Notes under the pieces: model-generated
Database searches by the model: none
The model's input: only the letters and a program-made list of their open reading frames with translations
Told to the model about the DNA's origin: nothing
In this document: piece by piece, positions 51,237 through 63,779 of the stretch
Layout of the letters: the number at the start of each line of letters is the position of its first letter
Numbering within the stretch: position 1 is the stretch's first letter
Origin: Lachnospiraceae bacterium
GTDB lineage: Bacteria; Bacillota; Clostridia; Lachnospirales; Lachnospiraceae
NCBI GenBank assembly: GCA_024697065.1
Contig: JAILGE010000032.1
Span: forward strand, 1-64,000
DNA: 64,000 nt
Reading direction: 5' to 3'
Program-made: the position numbers and the translations under genes

Positions 51237-54200
51237 CTATCTGGAGTTCTCTTCCGGAGTAGTCTTCTTATCGGGATCTGCATTATCCGCTGCTTTTTTG
51301 GCCATATTCTTATTGGCAGTGGAGAGCATGAGCTTTATCCTGTTCAACTGGTTTACTTCGCTGGCACCGGGATCGTAGTCGATGGCTACGATGTTGGAAG
51401 TAGGATAACGCTTGCGAAGCTCCTTGATGACGCCCTTACCAACTACATGATTAGGCAGGCATCCGAAGGGCTGGGTACATACGATATTCTCCGTGCCTGA
51501 GTGGATGAGCTCAAGCATCTCACCTGTAAGGAACCATCCTTCACCGGTCTGATTACCTATAGATACGATATCTTTTGCATAGTCCACCAGGTCATATATA
51601 TTTGCAGGCGGGGTAAAATGCTTACTCTTTGCAAGTGCTTTGGCGGGGAAGGAGCGGACAAAATCCATTCCCTTGATACCGAGCCTGGAATTTCTTGCGG
51701 TTTTTTTGCTCATACCCAGTTCCTCAGCTTTATAAATCTGATTATAGAAGCAGTAATACATGAAATCGATGAGATCCGGAACTACGGCTTCAGCACCCTC
51801 ACGCTCAAGGAGCTCCACCAGATGGTTATTGGCTGCAGGTGCGAATTTTACAAGTATCTCGCCGACGATACCTACTCTGGGCTTGCGCTCCTCATGGATG
51901 GGGATATTGTCGAATTCGGCGATCATTTCGGCACATATCTTCCTGTACCGGCCAAATGAGGGATGTTTGGAGCATATAAATTCATTACAAACCTTAAGCC
52001 ACTTCTGATGAACCTCTTCAACGGAACCGGGAGTGATCTCATAGGGGCGCATACGGTATATGCATCTCATGAATATATCACCGAAAAGCGCTGCATAGAG
52101 GAGTCTTACAGCAAGCTTGAGATTGATCTTGAATCCGGGATTGGCTTCCAGACCGCTTAAGTTCAGTGAGATGACGGGAATATGAGGATATCCGGCCTTC
52201 TCGAGAGCTCGTCTGATGAATCCCACATAGTTGGTCGCACGGCATCCGCCACCTGTCTGTGTCATCATGAGAGCCAGATGATCGGTATCATATTCGCCTG
52301 TCTGTATGGCTTCTATAAGCTGGCCGACTACGCACAGTGAAGGGTAGCAGGCATCGTTGTTAACGTATTTGAGACCTACATCCACGGAATGACGATTATC
52401 ATTATCAAGGACCTTCAGATTATATCCGCATGTCCTGAAAGCCGCTTCGAACATATCGAAGTGGATCGGTGACATCTGGGGACATATGATGGTATAAGTC
52501 TTTCGCATCTCTTCGGTAAAGAGTACGCGGTTTATATTTGTGGGTTTTATTGTTCGCTTTGCGTTCCTGCGCTCCTTAACCTCAAGAGCTGCTATGAGGG
52601 AACGGACTCTGATGCGGGCTGCACCGAGGTTATTTACTTCATCGATCTTAAGACAGGTATAGATCTTATCCGAACCGGAAAGTATATCGTTTACCTGGTC
52701 GGTCGTAACCGCATCCAGACCGCATCCGAAGGAATTGAGCTGGATCAGATCCAGATCATCTCTTGTTCTCACGAAGGAAGCTGCGGCATAAAGTCTTGAG
52801 TGGTACATCCACTGGTCGGATACGATAAGAGGTCTTTCGGGGCATCCCAGGTGGGATACGGAATCCTCGGTAAGTACTGCGATATCATATGTATTGATAA
52901 GCTCGGGGATACCGTGGTTGATCTCGGGATCAACGTGATAGGGACGGCCCGCCAGCACGATACCGCGCTTATGATGTTCTTCCATCCACTTAAGGACCTC
53001 TTCGCCCTTCTTTTGCATATCCTTATGAGCGGCATCAAGCTCTTCCCATGCTGCATCCACGGCAGCGGATATCTTGGACGGATCTATCTCTGTGAACTCT
53101 TTTATAAGAGCCTGTGAGATGAGAGCAGGATCCGAGAAATTCATGAAGGGATGTCTGAAGACAACTTCGCCGTTGGTGATGGCTTCCACATTGTTCTTGA
53201 TATTCTCGGGATATGAGGAGACGATGGGGCAGTTATAATGATTGTTTGCCCCCTTGGTCTCGTCACGCTCGTAGAAAAGTGACGGATAGAATATGAAATC
53301 AGGTTTCTGTTCCACAAGCCACTGAACATGTCCGTGAGCAAGCTTGGCGGGATAACACTCCGACTCCGAAGGGATGGACTCTATGCCCAGCTCATATATC
53401 TTTCTGTTGGAAGTGGGAGAGAGCAGTGTCCTGAATCCCAGCTCCTTAAAGAAGGTTGCCCAGAAGGGATAATTCTCGTAGATATTCAGTACACGGGGAA
53501 TACCTACTACGCCACGGTACGCCTTGTCGAGAGGCAGCGGCTCATAGTCAAAGAATCTCTTTAACTTATATTCGAACAGATTTGGAATATTATTGGCATT
53601 CTTGGGCTTACCGAGACCACGTTCACATCTGTTTCCGGATATGAATTTTCTGCCGCCGGAGAAAGTGTTTATGGTAAGTCTGCAGCTGTTTGTACATCCG
53701 CGGCACTTTGACATGGATGTGGTAAATTCAAACTTTTCTATATCATCAAAGGAGAGCATTGTGGTCTCATAGCCCTTCTCATATCTTTCTCTTGATACGA
53801 GAGCGGCACCGAAAGCTCCCATGATACCTGCGATATCGGGACGGATAGCTTCGCATCCGGCGATATTCTCAAAGCTCCTAAGTACTGCATCATTGTAGAA
53901 GGTTCCGCCCTGTACGACGATATTGCGTCCGAGAGCGGCAGCATCCGATACTTTTATAACTTTAAAGAGCGCATTCTTTATTACAGAGTAGGCAAGACCG
54001 GCAGAGATATCGGCTACGGAAGCTCCTTCCTTCTGTGCCTGCTTGACCTTGGAGTTCATGAATACGGTACATCTTGTTCCCAGATCAATGGGATGTTCAG
54101 CAAAAAGAGCTGCTTTAGCGAAGTCCTGAACACTTAAGTTAAGGGACTTTGCAAAGGTCTCAAGGAAAGAACCGCATCCGGAAGAACATGCCTCGTTGAG

Positions 54201-55580
54201 CATAACGGAATCTACATTGCCGTCTTTGATGCGGATACATTTCATATCCTGACCGCCGATATCAAGTATGCAGTCGACCTTGGGATCGAAGAAAGCTGCC
54301 GCATAATAGTGAGCAACAGTCTCAACCTGTCCGTCATCCAGAAGAAAAGCGGCTTTCATAAGGGCTTCGCCGTATCCCGTGGAGCATGCACGAACTATAC
54401 GTGCACCTCCGGGCAGCTTGGAGCGCAGCTCCTTGAATGCTTTAAGGGCAGTCTCAAGCGGTGAACCGTTATTATTGGAATAAAAGGACCATAACAGGGC
54501 ACCTTTGTCGGATACAAGAGCCATCTTGGTGGTGGTGGATCCCGCATCGATACCGAGGAAACAGTCTCCGTGATAAGCTGACAGATCTGCTGTTCCTACG
54601 CAGGCCTTGTCATGACGCATGGTGAATTCTTCGTATTCAGCCTTGTTTTTAAACAGGGGCTCCATACGTTCCACTTCGAATTCCATATGTATACCGCCTG
54701 CCAGACGGTCGAACATTTCCTTTAAGGTTGTCTCTGCATTGTCGAGTCCCTTGGTAGTATCCGCTGCAGAGATATTGGGTGTTCCGGCACTCAGTGCGGA
54801 TCCTATGGCGGCAAAGAGATGGGAATTCTCAAGCTCTATAGTATGCTCCTCATCGAGTTTTAAGGTTCTGATAAAAGCAGCCTTGAGCTCTGAAAGGAAG
54901 TGGAGCGGTCCTCCGAGGAATGCCACATGTCCGCGGATGGGTTTTCCGCAGGCAAGACCTGAGATAGTCTGGTTGACTACAGCCTGGAAGATGGAAGCCG
55001 AGAGATCCTCTCTGGTGGCACCGTCATTGATGAGCGGCTGGATATCGGTCTTGGCGAAAACTCCGCATCTGGCAGCTATGGTATAGAGGGACTTGTAGCC
55101 CTTTGCATATTCATTAAGTCCGGGAGCGTCCGTCTGTATGAGGGATGCCATCTGATCGATGAAGGAACCTGTACCGCCGGCACAGATACCGTTCATACGC
55201 TGCTCGACGCTGCCGTTTTCGAAATAGATTATCTTGGCATCTTCGCCGCCAAGCTCGATCGCCACATCTGTCATGGGAGCAAAGGTCTCGAGGGAGGTGC
55301 TTACCGCAATAACCTCCTGAACAAAGGGAACGCCTAAGTGGTTGGCGAGGGTGAGACCGCCGGAACCTGTGATGACAGGACGTATCTTCCTGTCTCCGGT
55401 GACTTCTATAGCTTTGCCAAGGAGCCCCTTTAACGTCTCACTGATATCTGCAAAGTGTCTTTCATAATCTGAAAAAAGTATATTGTTGGATGCATCGATA
55501 AGAGCGATCTTAACTGTTGTGGATCCTATATCGATACCCAGTCTTAAAGCTTCATTATTACCTGTAGTACTCATGATCAC
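51237..55580 (-). CDS. Giant 2-hydroxyacyl-CoA dehydratase activase fusion (two BadF/BcrA-type ASKHA ATPase domains + DUF2229 + HgdB-like region)
   Basis: [16 protein letters not shown] and [20 protein letters not shown] (two ASKHA phosphate-1 motifs), [47 protein letters not shown]. Confidence 0.85.
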
Positions 55581-55742: not shown

Positions 55743-57122
55743 ATGGATAAAGATATTACTAAAAATACAGAGAAAACAGGGCGCCCGGACAGCTATACGA
55801 TCATGATGATCATTTCCGGGCTATTCTTTCTGGCACTTCATCTCACATTTGTGGGATTTACCAATGATGATTCATATTTCAAGGTTATAAGAGAGGACTT
55901 TGATTCGCTCTTTGCCATTGTTTTGGACAGGTATCTTACGGATTCGTCAAGAGTCCTGTCGGAAGCAGTACTCTTCACCCTTATAAGGATGCCTTTTATA
56001 GTCTGGCAGCTGTTGGATACGCTGATCTGTCTCCTGGTAACGCATTCTGCGGCAGTGATACTTACGGGGGACAGGAAGGACAGGAAGAATTATCTGGTAT
56101 TCCTCCTCTTTGCATGTTATCCCTATATGCATATGGGGTCTGCCGGATGGATATGCACTTCCCTCAATTATATATGGCCAATGGCGGCATTTCTCTATGC
56201 ACTGTCAGGTGCGGTAAGGCGATACAGAGGGGAGAAGGTCGGTGGAAATCAATACAGGCTGTATGTCCTTGCACTGATCTTCGCCGCAAACTGTGAGCAG
56301 TCGGCAGTGGTGGTCATCGCAGCCTTTGCCACGGCAGCGGTATTTGCCATAATTGATAAGAGAAGCAGATGGTATGAGCTTACGGGGACATTCATCGGTA
56401 TCTTCGGGCTTGTATTTGCAATGACGGCACCGGGGAACGGAGCACGTACCGAGATGGAAGCTGCCAACTGGATGCCGGAATTCTTCGATCTGAGTCTGCC
56501 GGAAAAAGCAAGACTCTGCGGCGTGTTCGTATTCGAGCATTATGTGATGATACCGGATGTGATCTTCTTCCTGTTTTCGATACTTATACTTTTTGCGGGA
56601 ATGGACAGCGGGAAGCGCATGGTCAAAGTTGCGGCAGTGGTACCCGTACTTATTGATGTGATATTTACATCGGTGTATTTCGTAAAGGACTTCATCATCG
56701 GGCACAAGACAAAGTATGATTTCACGACGCCTGCCATCTATATGAATGATGCACATACGGCCTTCGTTCAGCTTTCGGAAGCTGCGGGACTGATCATCTA
56801 TATCGCAGCGACTCTCTACGTATTATGGAATGTATTTGAAAATGTTAGAGTGCGTAACGTGAGCATCGTCGCTCTCGGCACGGGATTCGCTGTCAGAATG
56901 GCTCTTATGCTTTCTCCCACCATGTTCTCATCATGGCACAGAGTGCTGATATATCTTTACTTCGCATTTCTGGGAGACAGTTATCTCCTGGCGGAGAGGT
57001 TTGTGTTCGCAGAGGAGAAGGTGAAGCCTATGCGCCGCAAAGTGATCTGCGCGGTGCTGATAGCGGGAATACTTGTAAATCTCGTCCTTACGGTTGGATT
57101 ACAGATAAGAAAAGCCGGCTAA
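55743..57122 (+). CDS. Polytopic membrane protein (DUF6056/GtrII-like)
   Basis: About ten hydrophobic segments; TNDDSYFK near the N-terminus typical of such integral membrane glycan-associated proteins. Confidence 0.5.
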   Translation: MDKDITKNTEKTGRPDSYTIMMIISGLFFLALHLTFVGFTNDDSYFKVIREDFDSLFAIVLDRYLTDSSRVLSEAVLFTLIRMPFIVWQLLDTLICLLVTHSAAVILTGDRKDRKNYLVFLLFACYPYMHMGSAGWICTSLNYIWPMAAFLYALSGAVRRYRGEKVGGNQYRLYVLALIFAANCEQSAVVVIAAFATAAVFAIIDKRSRWYELTGTFIGIFGLVFAMTAPGNGARTEMEAANWMPEFFDLSLPEKARLCGVFVFEHYVMIPDVIFFLFSILILFAGMDSGKRMVKVAAVVPVLIDVIFTSVYFVKDFIIGHKTKYDFTTPAIYMNDAHTAFVQLSEAAGLIIYIAATLYVLWNVFENVRVRNVSIVALGTGFAVRMALMLSPTMFSSWHRVLIYLYFAFLGDSYLLAERFVFAEEKVKPMRRKVICAVLIAGILVNLVLTVGLQIRKAG

Positions 57123-57279: not shown

Positions 57280-57540
57280 ATGGACAGCATCGAATTCAGA
57301 TATGACACACAGCTTCTCATTGACGGAGATGACCTTGATGAGGATGAAGTAAATGATTATATCACCAGTCATTTTAAGGGGGACTGCCTCCTTGCTGTAG
57401 GCGGAGATGGAGATCCCATCAAGATCCACTTCCATACTAACGAGCCCTGGCTTGTGCTCGAGTATTGCAGAAGCCTCGGAGAGATCTACGACATAGTTGT
57501 TGAGGACATGGACAGACAGGCGAGAGGACTTAAAGGCTGA
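57280..57540 (+). CDS. Stand-alone FakA C-terminal/DegV-like domain protein
   Basis: FRYDTQLLIDGDDLDEDEVNDYITSHFKGDCLLAVGGDGDPIKIHFHTNEPWLVLEYCRSLGEIYDIVVEDMDRQ resembles the FakA C-terminal segment (Y.TEF......GDS.VVVGD.D.IKVHVHTN.P..VL.YA...GEL..I.I.NM..Q). Confidence 0.65.
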   Translation: MDSIEFRYDTQLLIDGDDLDEDEVNDYITSHFKGDCLLAVGGDGDPIKIHFHTNEPWLVLEYCRSLGEIYDIVVEDMDRQARGLKG

Positions 57541-57542
57541 AA

Positions 57543-58550
57543 ATGGGCATTTTAAATAAGCTTGAGAGGAAATTCGGGAAATATGCGATACCGAATCTTC
57601 CGTTGCTGATAATGATCACTTATGTCGTAGGATACGGACTGGAGCTGATAAGCAGGGATGAGATCGTTGATATCATCTCACTGAATCCTTATGCCATAGT
57701 GCACGGGCAGGTGTGGAGACTCTTCACATGGCTCTTTATCCCGCCTACCGAATTTTCATTCTTTACGGTGATAATGCTGTATTTTTATTATTCCATATCG
57801 AAGACCCTGGAATATACATGGGGAAGGTTTTATTTTAACCTTTATTTCTTCATGGGAATTATATTTACCGTGGCAGGGGCATTCGCCATGTACGGATATT
57901 CAGAACTGATTGTTCCTGATCTGGCAAGAGATGCAGATATGTTTTATACAGTGAGGTACGGTGTCGAGTGCAATGCTTTGGACGGCGGCTCATGGTATTA
58001 TGCTTACCTTGCCAGGCTGTATTCCACGTATTACGTGAATATGGCCATATTCCTGGCATTTGCGGCTACATATCCGGACACTCAGGTACTGCTGATGTTC
58101 ATCATTCCCATCAAGATGAAAGTGCTGGGTATATTTGATGCACTCTATATGATATATCTGGGCGTTGATATGAGTATGCAAGGATTTCCCATGGGACTTT
58201 TTGTAATAGGAGCCTCACTTCTTAATTTCGTGGTATTCTTCCTTATCACCAGAAAGGGGATGCACAGATCGCCCCGGATGAGGAAGACGCAAAGGGAATT
58301 TAAAAAGCAGAACAGGCAGTATGCTTCAATGCGTTCCGAACACAGGATAGCAAAACATAAGTGCGCCATCTGCGGCAGGACAAGTGAGGATTATCCGAAT
58401 CTTGAATTTCGCTTCTGTTCCAAATGCGAGGGGAATTATGAATTCTGTCAGGATCATCTTTTCACACATAAGCATTTTAAGAGAGGCGATATGAACAGAA
58501 ATGACAAAGATGTGATGGGAGGCAGTGTTCCCAACAGTGACAAGCTTTAA
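57543..58550 (+). CDS. Rhomboid-like membrane protein with C-terminal Cys/His (zinc-ribbon-like) module
   Basis: VHGQVWRLFTWLFIPP and LEYTWGRFYFNLYFF rhomboid/derlin-like segments; C-terminal CAICGRTSEDYPNLEFRFCSKCEGNYEFCQDHLFTHKHF. Confidence 0.65.
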   Translation: MGILNKLERKFGKYAIPNLPLLIMITYVVGYGLELISRDEIVDIISLNPYAIVHGQVWRLFTWLFIPPTEFSFFTVIMLYFYYSISKTLEYTWGRFYFNLYFFMGIIFTVAGAFAMYGYSELIVPDLARDADMFYTVRYGVECNALDGGSWYYAYLARLYSTYYVNMAIFLAFAATYPDTQVLLMFIIPIKMKVLGIFDALYMIYLGVDMSMQGFPMGLFVIGASLLNFVVFFLITRKGMHRSPRMRKTQREFKKQNRQYASMRSEHRIAKHKCAICGRTSEDYPNLEFRFCSKCEGNYEFCQDHLFTHKHFKRGDMNRNDKDVMGGSVPNSDKL

Positions 58551-58592
58551 TGAAAGCCGCGGAATAAACACATCTTTTCCCGGAGGAAAAAA

Positions 58593-59321
58593 ATGACGGA
58601 TCAACAGGAATTTATTGAAAAGATAAGCGAGCTTAAGGATACAGCCATCCTTCAGGGCGGACAGATCTCCGAGGCTCAGATAGAGGAGACCTTCCCTGAT
58701 CTTACACAGGATCAAAAGAACCTTCTGCTTGATTATTTCAAACAGAATAATATCGGTATCGGAGAGCCGCTCAAAGATGAGGAATACCTTGATGCGGATG
58801 AAGGAAAGATCATAAAGATGTACCTGGATGAGCTGGAAGAGCTGGAAGAAGTGGATGACTCCTTAAAGCGTGTGCTCGTAATCGGGGCATTAAACGGAGA
58901 TAATGAGGCAAAGGAACGCCTCACAAACAGTTATCTTAAGGCAGTTGTGGATGTGGCAAAGCTTTATACCGGACAGGGTGTAGAGGTAGGCGACCTCATC
59001 GGTGAAGGTAATGTGGCTTTGGCCAATGCAATGTCTCTGCTTCAGAGTATCGAGAAGCCGGAAGACTGTGATGAGATGGTAATGCGCACAGTCATGAATG
59101 CCATGGAAGAAATGATCAATGCAGAGAATGCCGAAGTGGATGTGAACCGCAAGGTGCTTAAGCTTGTCATGGAGATCATAGGCAAAGCAAAGGAGCTCTC
59201 GGAGGAACTCAGACGCAAGTGCACCGTAGAGGAGCTTGCGGAAGAGGGAGGATTCAGCCCGGAAGATATCATGGAAGCTGTCAGAGTATCCGCTAACTGC
59301 GGAGATTATATTGAGATATAA
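58593..59321 (+). CDS. Truncated sigma-70-like protein (regions 1.1, 1.2, 2.1-2.2 and 3-like; no region 4)
   Basis: IIKMYLDELEELEEVDD...ALNGDNEAKERLTNSYLKAVVDVAKLYTGQGVEVGDLIGEGNVALANAM matches sigma regions 1.2-2.2; LRRKCTVEELAEEGGFSPEDIMEAVRVSANC resembles region 3. Confidence 0.7.
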   Translation: MTDQQEFIEKISELKDTAILQGGQISEAQIEETFPDLTQDQKNLLLDYFKQNNIGIGEPLKDEEYLDADEGKIIKMYLDELEELEEVDDSLKRVLVIGALNGDNEAKERLTNSYLKAVVDVAKLYTGQGVEVGDLIGEGNVALANAMSLLQSIEKPEDCDEMVMRTVMNAMEEMINAENAEVDVNRKVLKLVMEIIGKAKELSEELRRKCTVEELAEEGGFSPEDIMEAVRVSANCGDYIEI

Positions 59322-59349
59322 AGGGAACAAAAAGATCTTACGGTGATAT

Positions 59350-59751
59350 ATGTCTAAATTGCAATTTGGTGAAAATGATTATAAATATGTGATCCAGGAA
59401 TTCTCGAAGACCATGATCGGGGCGCGTTATACTTACCGTGAGATCTTATCCGCGGAGCGCGTTCCTTTTAAGTTTCAGACTATCGTAGACAGACTGATAG
59501 TGCCCTATGCTGATATGGATATGATGCTGGGGGATCATCTCTTAAATATGACTGCGGATGATAAAAATAAGCGTATCTTCGAGAACCTGAAGGCGAAGCT
59601 CAGGATATCCATCCCGCAGGCGGACGGTTCATATACCACAAAAGATATGCCGTTAGGCGCGCTGATCGCAATAGATCCGGAAGAAAAGAAGGATTTCTTC
59701 ATCCAGGAGATGATAATCTCCAATCTTGCATTATTCGGGTTTAAGCTTTAA
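59350..59751 (+). CDS. Hypothetical protein, likely co-transcribed with the sigma-like gene
   Basis: Uninterrupted ORF 28 nt downstream, same strand; no recognised family. Confidence 0.55.
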   Translation: MSKLQFGENDYKYVIQEFSKTMIGARYTYREILSAERVPFKFQTIVDRLIVPYADMDMMLGDHLLNMTADDKNKRIFENLKAKLRISIPQADGSYTTKDMPLGALIAIDPEEKKDFFIQEMIISNLALFGFKL

Positions 59752-59795: not shown

Positions 59796-59899
59796 AGTAT
59801 TAAGAAATAAGATTAAGAACCAGTATTAAGAAATAAAATTAAGAACCAGTATTAAGAAATAAGATTAAGAACCAGTATTAAGAAATAAGATTAAGAACC
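59796..59899. repeat. 26-bp tandem repeat (AGTATTAAGAAATAAGATTAAGAACC), 4 copies plus a diverged fifth
   Basis: AGTATTAAG recurs at 59796, 59822, 59848 and 59874; the diverged fifth copy runs into the RBS of the next gene. Confidence 0.95.
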
Positions 59900-59923
59900 A
59901 GGATCAAGAAAGAAGGAAAGAAC

Positions 59924-62848
59924 ATGTTTGACCCCAAAATACTTGAAAAATATAAGATAGTGGAGCACCACTACAGCGAAGATTTAAAGAGCGAAGCCTA
60001 TCTCATGGAGCATATTAAGAGCGGTGCACGTATCGCGCTTCTTGATAATGATGAGGAGAATAAGGTTTTCTATATCGCATTCAGGACACCGCCTAAGGAT
60101 TCAACCGGAGTGGCCCACATACTTGAGCATTCCGTGCTGTGCGGCTCGGAGAAGTTCCCCTTAAAGGATCCTTTCGTTGAACTGGTAAAGGGTTCCCTCA
60201 ATACCTTCCTCAATGCCATGACATATCCGGATAAGACAGTCTATCCCGTAGCATCCTGCAATGATAAGGATTTCAAGAATCTGATGGATGTCTATATGGA
60301 TGCGGTTCTTCATCCCAATATCTATCGCGAAGAGAAGATATTCAGACAGGAAGGCTGGCACTATGAACTGGCTGACAGGGATGATGAGCTTAAGATAAAC
60401 GGTGTTGTATATAACGAGATGAAGGGTGCATTTTCCTCGCCGGAAGATGTGCTTTACAGAGAGATCATGAATTCACTTTATCCCGATACTGCGTACGGAG
60501 TGGAGAGCGGAGGAGATCCCGAGTGTATTCCGGATCTTACATATGAGGATTTCCTTAAGTTCCACGGATCATATTATCATCCCGTGAACTCATATATTTA
60601 TATGTACGGTAATGCGGACTGGAATGAGAGACTAGCATGGCTTGATGAGAGATATCTCTCGGGATACGACCGTATTGATATCTCATCATTCCCGGGGCGT
60701 CAGACGCCTTTTGACAGTGTGCGTACTATCACCAAAGAATACCCTATATCGGAGGATGAGAAGGAAGAGGACAATACATTCCTTTCATACAATGCGGTCA
60801 TCGGAGATTCCACTGACAGGGAACTGTATCTCGCTTTTCAGATAGTTGATTATGCGCTTATCGATGCTGACGGAACACCTCTTAAGAAAGCTCTTCTCGA
60901 AGCCGGCATAGGCACAGAGATCATGTCCACGTTTGAAAACGGAATATGTGAGCCTTATTACAGCATCATCGCAAAGAACGCCAATCCGGAAGATGAGGCG
61001 AAATTTGTTGAGCTCATTGAGAATGAATTCAGACGCGTGGTTAAGGAAGGTTTTGACAAAAATGCACTCCTTGCGGATCTAAATTACCTGGAGTTCAAAT
61101 ACAGGGAGGCTGACTCAGGTCATTATCCCAAGGGACTGCTCATGGGACTCAAGTGCCTGGACAGCTGGCTCTATGATGATTCGAAGCCCTTCATCCATGT
61201 AGAGGAGCTGGATACTTTTGCAAAGCTCAGGAAAAAGATAGATACACATTATTTTGAAGACCTGGTAGATAAATATCTACTCGGCAATATACACAGATCC
61301 GTTCTTAAGCTTGTTCCGAAGAAAGGCCTTACGGCAAAGAAGGATAAGGAACTTGCGGATAAGCTTGCGTCATATAAAGCATCTTTATCCGATAAGGAGA
61401 TAGGGGAAATAGTTGAATCCACTAAGGCATTAAAGCTTTTCCAGGAAACTCCGGACTCGGAGGAAGCATTAAAGTGTCTTCCTGTGCTTAAGAGATCGGA
61501 TTTAAGGAAAGAAGCGGAACCGCTTATTAATGAGTGGACCGAGGTGGATGGCATAAAGACGCTTTTCCACGACATCGATACCAACGGCATCGTATATTTC
61601 ACTATGCTTTTCGATATGGATAAGCTCCCTTACCCGCTCTATCCTTACGCGGGATTATTGAATGGCGTCCTCAGATCGGTGGATACCGCAAAGCATACTT
61701 ACGACAGTCTCGGATATGAGATAGACAAGTACACCGGATGCATCAGCATGTCTTCGGACAGCACTGTCATCAAAGGCGACCTTAAGAATTATAAGAGATA
61801 CCTTACAGTCAAGCTCAGTGCCATGACACAGAACATTCCTCAGGCCTTTGATCTTCTGGGAGAGATAATGCTCACATCAAAGCTTGATGATACGAAGCGT
61901 TTAAAGGAGATCATAGCAGAGGGAAGATCTCGCATTCAGAGTACCATGCTCTCATCAGGTCATCTTGTGGCAGCGGCTCATGCTGCAGCCGGCGCATCGG
62001 AATTTGCCAAGACGAGAGAAATGATCAGCGGTCTGGATTACTACAGATGTCTGGAGGACTGGGAAGCCAACTTTGATGAGAAGAAGGATGAGATAGTAGC
62101 CGGACTTAAAGAGACACTTCGCATCGTATACAGGAAAGAGAACCTCTTCCTTGATGTCACGGGAGGCAGGACGGAGCTCGATTCGTTAAAGGGTATGGTC
62201 AGTCCCATCGTGGATGCTCTGGATACTGCTCCGGTGAATGTACCCAAGGGCAGCATAGAAGTTAAAAAGGAGAAAGCGGGACTCAGTTGTTCATCGCAGG
62301 TTCAGTATGTATGCCGTTCGGGTAACTTTAAGGATCACGGTCTGGAATACAAGGGAAGCATGCATATCCTCCATACTATCCTCGGATATGATTATCTCTG
62401 GACAAATGTCCGCGTAAAGGGTGGTGCATACGGATGCATGAACAGCTTCGGCAGACATGGTACAAGCTATTTCGTATCCTACAGGGATCCGAATCTTACG
62501 GAGACGATCGATATATTTGAGAAGGCAGCGGATTATCTGCGTGATTTCAAGGCGGATGATGAACAGATGACAAAGTACATCATAGGCACCATGAGTGATA
62601 TAGATATCCCCAGGATGCCTTCTGCCAAGGGATCGAGATCGCTCCATGCAGAGCTCGAGGGTATAACTTACGAGCAGCTCCAGAAGGAGAGGGATGAAGT
62701 ATTAAATGCAAATGACGGGGATATCAGAGCGCTGGCAGCCCATGTGGAAGCATTCATGTCGGATGACATATTATGCGTTGTGGGAAATGAGACCAAGATC
62801 AATGATAATAAAGACTGCTTCGATGTGACCGAAGCGCTGTTCCATTAA
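59924..62848 (+). CDS. Insulinase / presequence protease-like M16C metallopeptidase
   Basis: GVAHILEHSVLCGSEKFPLKDPFVEL (HxxEH-type motif HILEH), M16C-associated architecture, 974 aa. Confidence 0.93.
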   Translation: MFDPKILEKYKIVEHHYSEDLKSEAYLMEHIKSGARIALLDNDEENKVFYIAFRTPPKDSTGVAHILEHSVLCGSEKFPLKDPFVELVKGSLNTFLNAMTYPDKTVYPVASCNDKDFKNLMDVYMDAVLHPNIYREEKIFRQEGWHYELADRDDELKINGVVYNEMKGAFSSPEDVLYREIMNSLYPDTAYGVESGGDPECIPDLTYEDFLKFHGSYYHPVNSYIYMYGNADWNERLAWLDERYLSGYDRIDISSFPGRQTPFDSVRTITKEYPISEDEKEEDNTFLSYNAVIGDSTDRELYLAFQIVDYALIDADGTPLKKALLEAGIGTEIMSTFENGICEPYYSIIAKNANPEDEAKFVELIENEFRRVVKEGFDKNALLADLNYLEFKYREADSGHYPKGLLMGLKCLDSWLYDDSKPFIHVEELDTFAKLRKKIDTHYFEDLVDKYLLGNIHRSVLKLVPKKGLTAKKDKELADKLASYKASLSDKEIGEIVESTKALKLFQETPDSEEALKCLPVLKRSDLRKEAEPLINEWTEVDGIKTLFHDIDTNGIVYFTMLFDMDKLPYPLYPYAGLLNGVLRSVDTAKHTYDSLGYEIDKYTGCISMSSDSTVIKGDLKNYKRYLTVKLSAMTQNIPQAFDLLGEIMLTSKLDDTKRLKEIIAEGRSRIQSTMLSSGHLVAAAHAAAGASEFAKTREMISGLDYYRCLEDWEANFDEKKDEIVAGLKETLRIVYRKENLFLDVTGGRTELDSLKGMVSPIVDALDTAPVNVPKGSIEVKKEKAGLSCSSQVQYVCRSGNFKDHGLEYKGSMHILHTILGYDYLWTNVRVKGGAYGCMNSFGRHGTSYFVSYRDPNLTETIDIFEKAADYLRDFKADDEQMTKYIIGTMSDIDIPRMPSAKGSRSLHAELEGITYEQLQKERDEVLNANDGDIRALAAHVEAFMSDDILCVVGNETKINDNKDCFDVTEALFH

Positions 62849-62861
62849 GACGGGAGAGACT

Positions 62862-63779
62862 ATGGGAGAAGAGAACCGTAAAAAATCAGGATTCGTAGTA
62901 TTGGCAGGCAAGCCCAATGTGGGCAAGAGTACTTTGATGAACAGGCTCATCGGAGAGAAGATCGCCATTACATCACCGCGTCCCCAGACCACCAGGAACC
63001 GTATACGTACGGTGCTCACCGAGGAGAGAGGGCAGATAGTCTTCGTTGATACACCGGGACTGCACAAGGCCAGGAACAAGCTGGGCGACTATATGATGGC
63101 AGCAGCGGACCGCTCCATAAAAGAGGCTGATCTGGTACTGTGGCTTGTAGAACCAAAGGCCGAGATCCCCGAAGCGGAGCTGCGCATAGCAGAGCAGCTG
63201 CGTGAGATAAAGCTTCCCATAATACTTGTCATCAATAAGATCGATACGGTAAAGAAACCGGAGATCCTCAAAGTCATCGATGCATATCAGAAGCTTTGCG
63301 AATTTGCGGAGATAATCCCTGTATCAGCAATCAAGGCGCAGGGGATAGACGATCTTTTAGGAAGCATATTCAAACACTTAAAGGAGGGACCGTTCTTCTT
63401 CGACGAAGATGAGCTTACTGACCAGCCGATCAGACAGCTGGCAGCAGAGCTTATAAGAGAAAAGGCGCTGCGTCTCCTTGATAAAGAGATACCTCACGGT
63501 ATCGCCGTGCTGATAGACAGGATGGAGAAGCGCGAAGGTAAGGATATATATGACGTGGAAGCGACCATCGTCTGCGAAAAGGAATCTCATAAAGGGATCA
63601 TCATCGGCAAAAAGGGTTCAATGCTCAGAGAGATAGGTACCCAGGCACGACCGGGAATAGAGAGGCTCCTTGAAACAAAAGTCAATCTGAAGCTTTGGGT
63701 AAAGGTCAGGGAAAACTGGCGTGAGAGTGATCTGTTAGTGGCTAATTTCGGCTACAGCAAGGATGATCTGAAGAAATAA
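62862..63779 (+). CDS. era: GTPase Era
   Basis: GKPNVGKSTLMNRLIGEKIAITSPRPQTTRNRI, DTPGLHKARNKLGDYM, C-terminal KH domain. Confidence 0.97.
   Translation: MGEENRKKSGFVVLAGKPNVGKSTLMNRLIGEKIAITSPRPQTTRNRIRTVLTEERGQIVFVDTPGLHKARNKLGDYMMAAADRSIKEADLVLWLVEPKAEIPEAELRIAEQLREIKLPIILVINKIDTVKKPEILKVIDAYQKLCEFAEIIPVSAIKAQGIDDLLGSIFKHLKEGPFFFDEDELTDQPIRQLAAELIREKALRLLDKEIPHGIAVLIDRMEKREGKDIYDVEATIVCEKESHKGIIIGKKGSMLREIGTQARPGIERLLETKVNLKLWVKVRENWRESDLLVANFGYSKDDLKK

Follow-up and report, generated by a model that had tools for sequence, protein, structure and literature searches.

What do four short genes, set one behind the other and each looking like a cut-down or altered member of a known protein family, do together in a Lachnospiraceae bacterium? 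The locus lies in a 64,000-nucleotide stretch of DNA (referred to here as the window), a single contig of a genome of 2.69 Mb in 44 contigs. The original prediction took it for a compact operon in which a lipid-kinase accessory-like domain, an intramembrane-protease-like protein and an RNA polymerase (RNAP)-binding-like protein might join the membrane to transcription. Lachnospiraceae form a major part of gut communities, and to our knowledge the control of their transcription has been little studied.

The predicted layout of four co-directional open reading frames was borne out: all lie on the plus strand, with gaps of 2 nt (genes 1–2), 42 nt (genes 2–3) and 28 nt (genes 3–4). Purifying selection acts on all four, with dN/dS values against the nearest relative (locus L184) of 0.117, 0.144, 0.053 and 0.074 for genes 1 to 4, and these low values, together with homologues in many genomes, mark them as real genes. 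Gene 1 is preceded by a strong ribosome-binding site (AAAGGAG), and a scan for consensus promoters gave matches no more numerous than in shuffled sequence.

Table 1. Position of the four genes, of the region 2.2 motif of gene 3 and of the conserved neighbours in the window
Feature	Position	Strand	Matches and other support
Double acyl-CoA dehydratase activase protein, conserved divergent neighbour	51237..55580	-	TIGR00241, 232 bits
Gene 1, solo FakA middle domain, 86 aa	57280..57540	+	Pfam FakA-like_M
Gene 2, pseudo-rhomboid (Derlin/TMEM115-like) membrane domain with C-terminal zinc finger, 335 aa	57543..58550	+	
Gene 3, pseudo-sigma with regions 1.1, 1.2, 2 and 3.0–3.1, without region 4, 242 aa	58593..59321	+	
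DLIGEGN, codons 134–140 of gene 3, sigma region 2.2 motif facing the β′ clamp	58992..59012	+	
Gene 4, Lachnospiraceae-specific, 133 aa; predicted fold is half of a molybdenum hydroxylase FAD domain	59350..59751	+	
M16C (insulinase/pitrilysin type) peptidase, conserved downstream neighbour	59924..62848	+	NCBIfam pitrilysin/YfmH matches
GTPase Era, conserved downstream neighbour	62862..63779	+	NCBIfam, 374.6 bits; synteny

The conserved unit is genes 2-3-4, referred to here as the cassette, which is found in many Lachnospiraceae. The comparison of neighbourhoods drew on 80 named loci that carry a gene 3 homologue, mostly labelled Lachnospiraceae; these are the best 80 among 444 or more relatives and, being close kin, are not independent. 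Within this sample gene 2 lies directly upstream of gene 3 in 68/70 loci, gene 4 directly downstream in 73/77, and in 61/70 an M16C peptidase gene is no more than 2 kb away from gene 3. The usual order is activase on the opposite strand (divergent in most loci), gene 2, gene 3, gene 4, M16C, often a DUF4349 protein, era and recO, the names DUF4349 and RecO being provisional. Overlaps of 4 nt are numerous, and short gaps and overlaps persist across genera; overlap lengths are approximate, as each reading frame was started at its longest possible point. Gene 1 is found within 2.5 kb at just 4/70 loci (L184–L187), all close relatives. The expected adjacency thus extends across the family for genes 2, 3 and 4 and fails for gene 1, and an ancestral four-gene module including the FakA-like gene was discarded on that count. 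Adjacency alone is no proof of joint function, because the synteny runs on into the housekeeping genes era and recO. Some genomes carry gene 3 without gene 4 (L217, L261 of Kineothrix alysoides, L103, L109, L111, L114 and L115).

Several features of the surrounding DNA vary between loci. The activase protein comprises two activase domains, and its gene is divergent from gene 2 even in loci that lack gene 3. Between it and the putative operon is a gene for a DUF6056 membrane protein (55743-57122, 459 aa), absent from this site in a genome of the same genus (G004, locus L101). At two loci an insert of ~1 to 1.7 kb separates gene 3 from gene 4 (L231:6714-7665 and L248:2642-4378). Downstream of gene 4, ahead of the M16C gene, is a 26-bp tandem repeat (59796-59915; 4.6 copies, 94% matches), which looks like a local expansion, as the nearest relative has only a 45-bp gap there. 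Phage origin was rejected, the only two phage matches being weak, at ~27% identity.

Gene 1 had been predicted to resemble the C domain of FakA; it matches the middle domain instead (Pfam FakA-like_M, 61.4 bits against a cut-off of 24.9), over nearly the whole of its length, and neither the kinase (N) domain nor the C-terminal domain is present. In Staphylococcus aureus FakA the middle domain mediates dimerisation and has Cys240, His282 and His284 as its zinc ligands (PMC11617999). That ligand set is incomplete in gene 1: both histidines (HxH) are retained, and the Cys240 position is Asp in 17/17 aligned members. Orthologues with 64–94% identity occur in ~42/100 genomes of the family, as a highly conserved solo gene (L121–L140) that lies in unrelated contexts and has Asp for the zinc-binding Cys; stand-alone copies of the FakA middle domain occur in 10/399 genomes of the phylum. 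Since gene 1 precedes gene 2, as in the window, only in L184–L187, and stands solo with no neighbours in common in the 18 other Lachnospiraceae genomes examined, it is a recent recruit, a late, genus-level addition to the putative operon; the lipid-kinase-like part should therefore not anchor the interpretation.

Gene 2 was expected to be intramembrane-protease-like, and its rhomboid type held while protease activity did not. The protein in the window has no significant Pfam match, and the profile of its family matches five active rhomboids from relatives weakly. L276, a homologue belonging to a different family of the same order, matches Rhomboid (29.7 bits, cut-off 22.6), and falls below threshold for DER1 (22.8 bits, cut-off 26.6) and DUF1751 (21.2 bits, cut-off 22), the latter being the family of TMEM115-like proteins. 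Gene 2 can thus be placed in the rhomboid superfamily by profile homology, by way of L276 as intermediate because the direct comparison is weak. The W-R loop and an L-E-x-x-W-G motif are retained, and active rhomboid relatives carry HxxxN, GASG and H; with catalytic positions mapped by eye from motif spacing, the 43 gene 2 members have no counterpart of the TM2 His/Asn, the GxSG serine or the TM6 His. An active intramembrane protease was accordingly ruled out, leaving a pseudo-protease. Eight residues near the C terminus (C274, C277, C292, C295, C302, H305, H309 and H311) are invariant in 43 sequences, a putative zinc finger. Because the stretch preceding these ligands is strongly basic, the positive-inside rule would place the finger in the cytosol. 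Prokaryotic AN1/B-box-type fingers were reportedly linked to membrane peptidases by Burroughs, Iyer and Aravind in 2011. Elsewhere, rhomboid pseudoproteases mainly serve protein quality control or partner other proteins (PMC12615303), and gene 2 as a sensor or tether would fit this pattern.

Gene 3 has a σ70 fold and is homologous to σ regions 1.1, 2 and 3. Pfam detects three σ regions among 13 members (1.1 in 10 of them, 2 in 11, 3 in 12), and no receiver domain. The best sequence matches are to RpoS/SigB/RpoD-type models and SigA structures. A fold search with the AlphaFold model (pLDDT 89.9) returns σ factors in the PDB with low whole-chain TM-scores, perhaps reflecting a different arrangement of domains. 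Region 4 is absent, a median of 4 residues following the start of region 3.2 as against 103 in RpoD. Searches with the gene 3 profile place the short versions, among the matches listed for 381 genomes of the class, only in Lachnospiraceae; outside the family the matches listed are all full-length σ factors (reading frames of ~350 aa or more). No description of a σ-mimic protein of this type was found in the open-access literature.

Residues of gene 3 were assessed in Escherichia coli σ70 numbering, where the role of each is established. The loss falls mainly on contacts with DNA. Mean retention of the −10/melting set is 3% in 93 cassette members and 97% in 19 RpoDs, and that of the extended −10 set 5% and 100%; Y430, W433, W434, Q437, T440 and R441 are each retained in 0–1% of cassette members, with Lys/Arg for W433, mostly Met/Leu for W434, mostly Asp for Q437, Glu for T440 and mostly Glu for R441. 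Six of nine core-contact positions (L384, V387, Y394, D403, E407 and N409) are retained at 99–100% of the 93, with D403, E407 and N409 of the β′-binding helix in 93/93. Changes affect the other three, L402, M413 and Q406, the last replaced by Gly in 93/93. In σ factors, region 2.2 forms the interface to the β′ coiled coil (PMC4598750). The region 2.2 core motif is the best-conserved part of the gene 3 family, D134, E138 and N140 of gene 3 being invariant in 51 sequences. The description 'RNAP-binding-like' is supported, at the level of residues, by the part of the β′ contact motif that is kept while DNA contacts are lost, though three core contacts have changed.

A second, unlinked group of pseudo-sigma proteins, in other Lachnospiraceae, has the same residue pattern, also without region 4, and a mostly intact DLIQEGN. 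The cassette proteins form a supported clade (0.999) in a tree that does not resolve their link to this dispersed group. Genes of the second group (L141–L160) are often near a gene for a PurL-like or a penicillin-binding protein, names read from the sequences, and some of the proteins have His-rich tails.

Gene 4 has no family match: neither Pfam nor a comparison of its profile with PDB sequences gave anything convincing, and a viral fold search returned nothing below E=0.09. Its AlphaFold model (pLDDT 93.6) matches the FAD subunit of nicotinate dehydrogenase (Foldseek E=3.5e-5, TMq 0.63, 17% identity). Comparison of its profile with FAD subunits of the family gave a weak sequence match (P=0.0005 over 26 columns, in the register that the fold predicts), against P values of 0.14–0.8 for a small control set of nine unrelated local families. 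In the modelled fold gene 4 therefore resembles half of a molybdenum hydroxylase FAD domain from which the FAD motifs are missing: the N-terminal half is absent, the AGGTD-type FAD-binding loop and the GGN motif are lacking, and the position of TIGGN reads TLESH-like in a weak alignment. The prediction that each gene is an unusually truncated or variant member of a known family was correct for genes 1 to 3, and for gene 4 only by this predicted fold. Gene 4 occurs in 10/100 genomes of the family, beside gene 3 in each (once across a contig break), and in 10/391 genomes of the class, the tenth being marginal.

Co-divergence was measured at 47 loci with Era and M16C distances regressed out. Distances of genes 3 and 4 remain correlated (r=0.49, Mantel p=0.001), as do, less strongly, those of genes 2 and 4 (r=0.25, p=0.005), with no extra co-divergence of genes 2 and 3 (r=−0.11). 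This supports a partnership of genes 3 and 4, but no direct one of genes 2 and 3.

We propose, with a probability of about 0.45, that gene 3 is a non-initiating, RNAP-binding mimic of a σ factor, controlled by gene 4 and perhaps by the gene 2 membrane protein. Derived from σ70, it would most likely dock on the β′ clamp helices through its region 2.2 helix; as it should be unable to recognise or melt a promoter, and region 4 is absent, it is read as non-initiating, and it would compete in, or remodel, holoenzyme formation. Gene 4, which often overlaps gene 3 translationally and co-diverges with it, is the most likely partner and switch. The candidate for a sensor or tether at the membrane is gene 2, a rhomboid that lacks the catalytic residues and bears a putative cytosolic zinc finger; gene 1 is an addition of this genus. 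We infer the binding to RNAP, the formation of a complex, the sensing and the co-transcription of the cassette. A membrane-to-transcription link is plausible for the three-gene core, and genes 2-3-4 suggest an undescribed way to control transcription. We doubt a bolder version, in which a switch common to the family holds an RpoD-derived decoy on the RNAP clamp, off promoters, gated by a cofactor-less partner of flavoprotein fold, and a zinc-finger pseudo-rhomboid recruits the decoy to the membrane or releases it.

An RNAP-bound mimic is favoured because the loss falls where DNA would be contacted, and is held tentatively because three core contacts are changed as well; these changes may have reduced or abolished affinity for RNAP, and D, E and N of region 2.2 could be kept for folding instead. 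The same changes, shared by every or almost every cassette member, would suit a protein that avoids RNAP and titrates an anti-sigma factor or another σ-binding regulator, freeing a real σ factor, and PhyR itself uses a σ fold without promoter recognition (PMC8103513). In PhyR, however, promoter- and core-contact regions are both degenerate (PMC8103513), whereas the gene 3 family conserves its region 2.2 core motif best, and the cassette showed neither an anti-sigma gene nor a receiver domain; we consider titration of this kind unlikely. That gene 3 supplies the σ2 half of a split σ factor and another protein σ4, as in SigO–RsoA, fits the presence of region 2 and lack of region 4, as in RsoA, but a σ2 half needs the very −10 recognition and melting residues that nearly all members have lost, and gene 4 has no DNA-binding fold, so that this reading is highly improbable.

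It is also rather unlikely that the order is a relic of housekeeping synteny (era/recO/glyS), each protein having an unrelated role and gene 3 being a repurposed scaffold. The synteny does reach far past genes 2-3-4, and gene 2 is present in 93/100 genomes of the family, mostly without gene 3; yet gene 4 occurs in the family sample only beside gene 3, the two co-diverge beyond the flanking genes, and the short gaps and overlaps are maintained across genera.

If gene 3 does act as an RNAP-bound mimic, it would represent a novel kind of polymerase regulator, a conserved σ homologue in which promoter recognition has gone and the core part of the RNAP-docking motif remains; simple assays of binding and of transcription in vitro could put this to the test. 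The cassette also provides a tangible example of degenerate proteins from three unrelated families that are kept together under purifying selection.

Each component departs from its closest known counterpart. Gene 3 shares recognisable regions 1.1, 1.2, 2 and 3.0–3.1 with group 1 σ factors (RpoD/SigA), and differs in lacking regions 3.2 and 4 and in the replacement of DNA-contact residues, partly by acidic ones. The σ-like domain of PhyR, from the alphaproteobacterial general stress response, likewise has a σ fold without promoter recognition, but is ECF-like, carries a receiver domain and has core contacts that are degenerate (PMC8103513); gene 3 resembles RpoD, possesses region 1.1 and retains D, E and N in its region 2.2 motif. 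RsoA of Bacillus subtilis is also a region 2 protein without region 4, but takes part in promoter-dependent initiation, whereas gene 3 lacks the −10 contacts and has regions 1.1 and 3. The pseudo-rhomboids Derlin, TMEM115 and iRhom share with gene 2 the rhomboid-type membrane core, the WR loop and the lack of catalytic residues; gene 2 is bacterial and adds an invariant C-terminal Cys/His zinc-finger pattern. The predicted fold of gene 4 is like that of molybdenum hydroxylase FAD subunits (nicotinate/xanthine dehydrogenase) over ~120 residues, without their N-terminal FAD loop and GGN motif and at the low identity given above. Gene 1 corresponds to the full length of the FakA middle domain, HxH included, but as a free-standing protein without a kinase domain and with Asp in place of Cys240.
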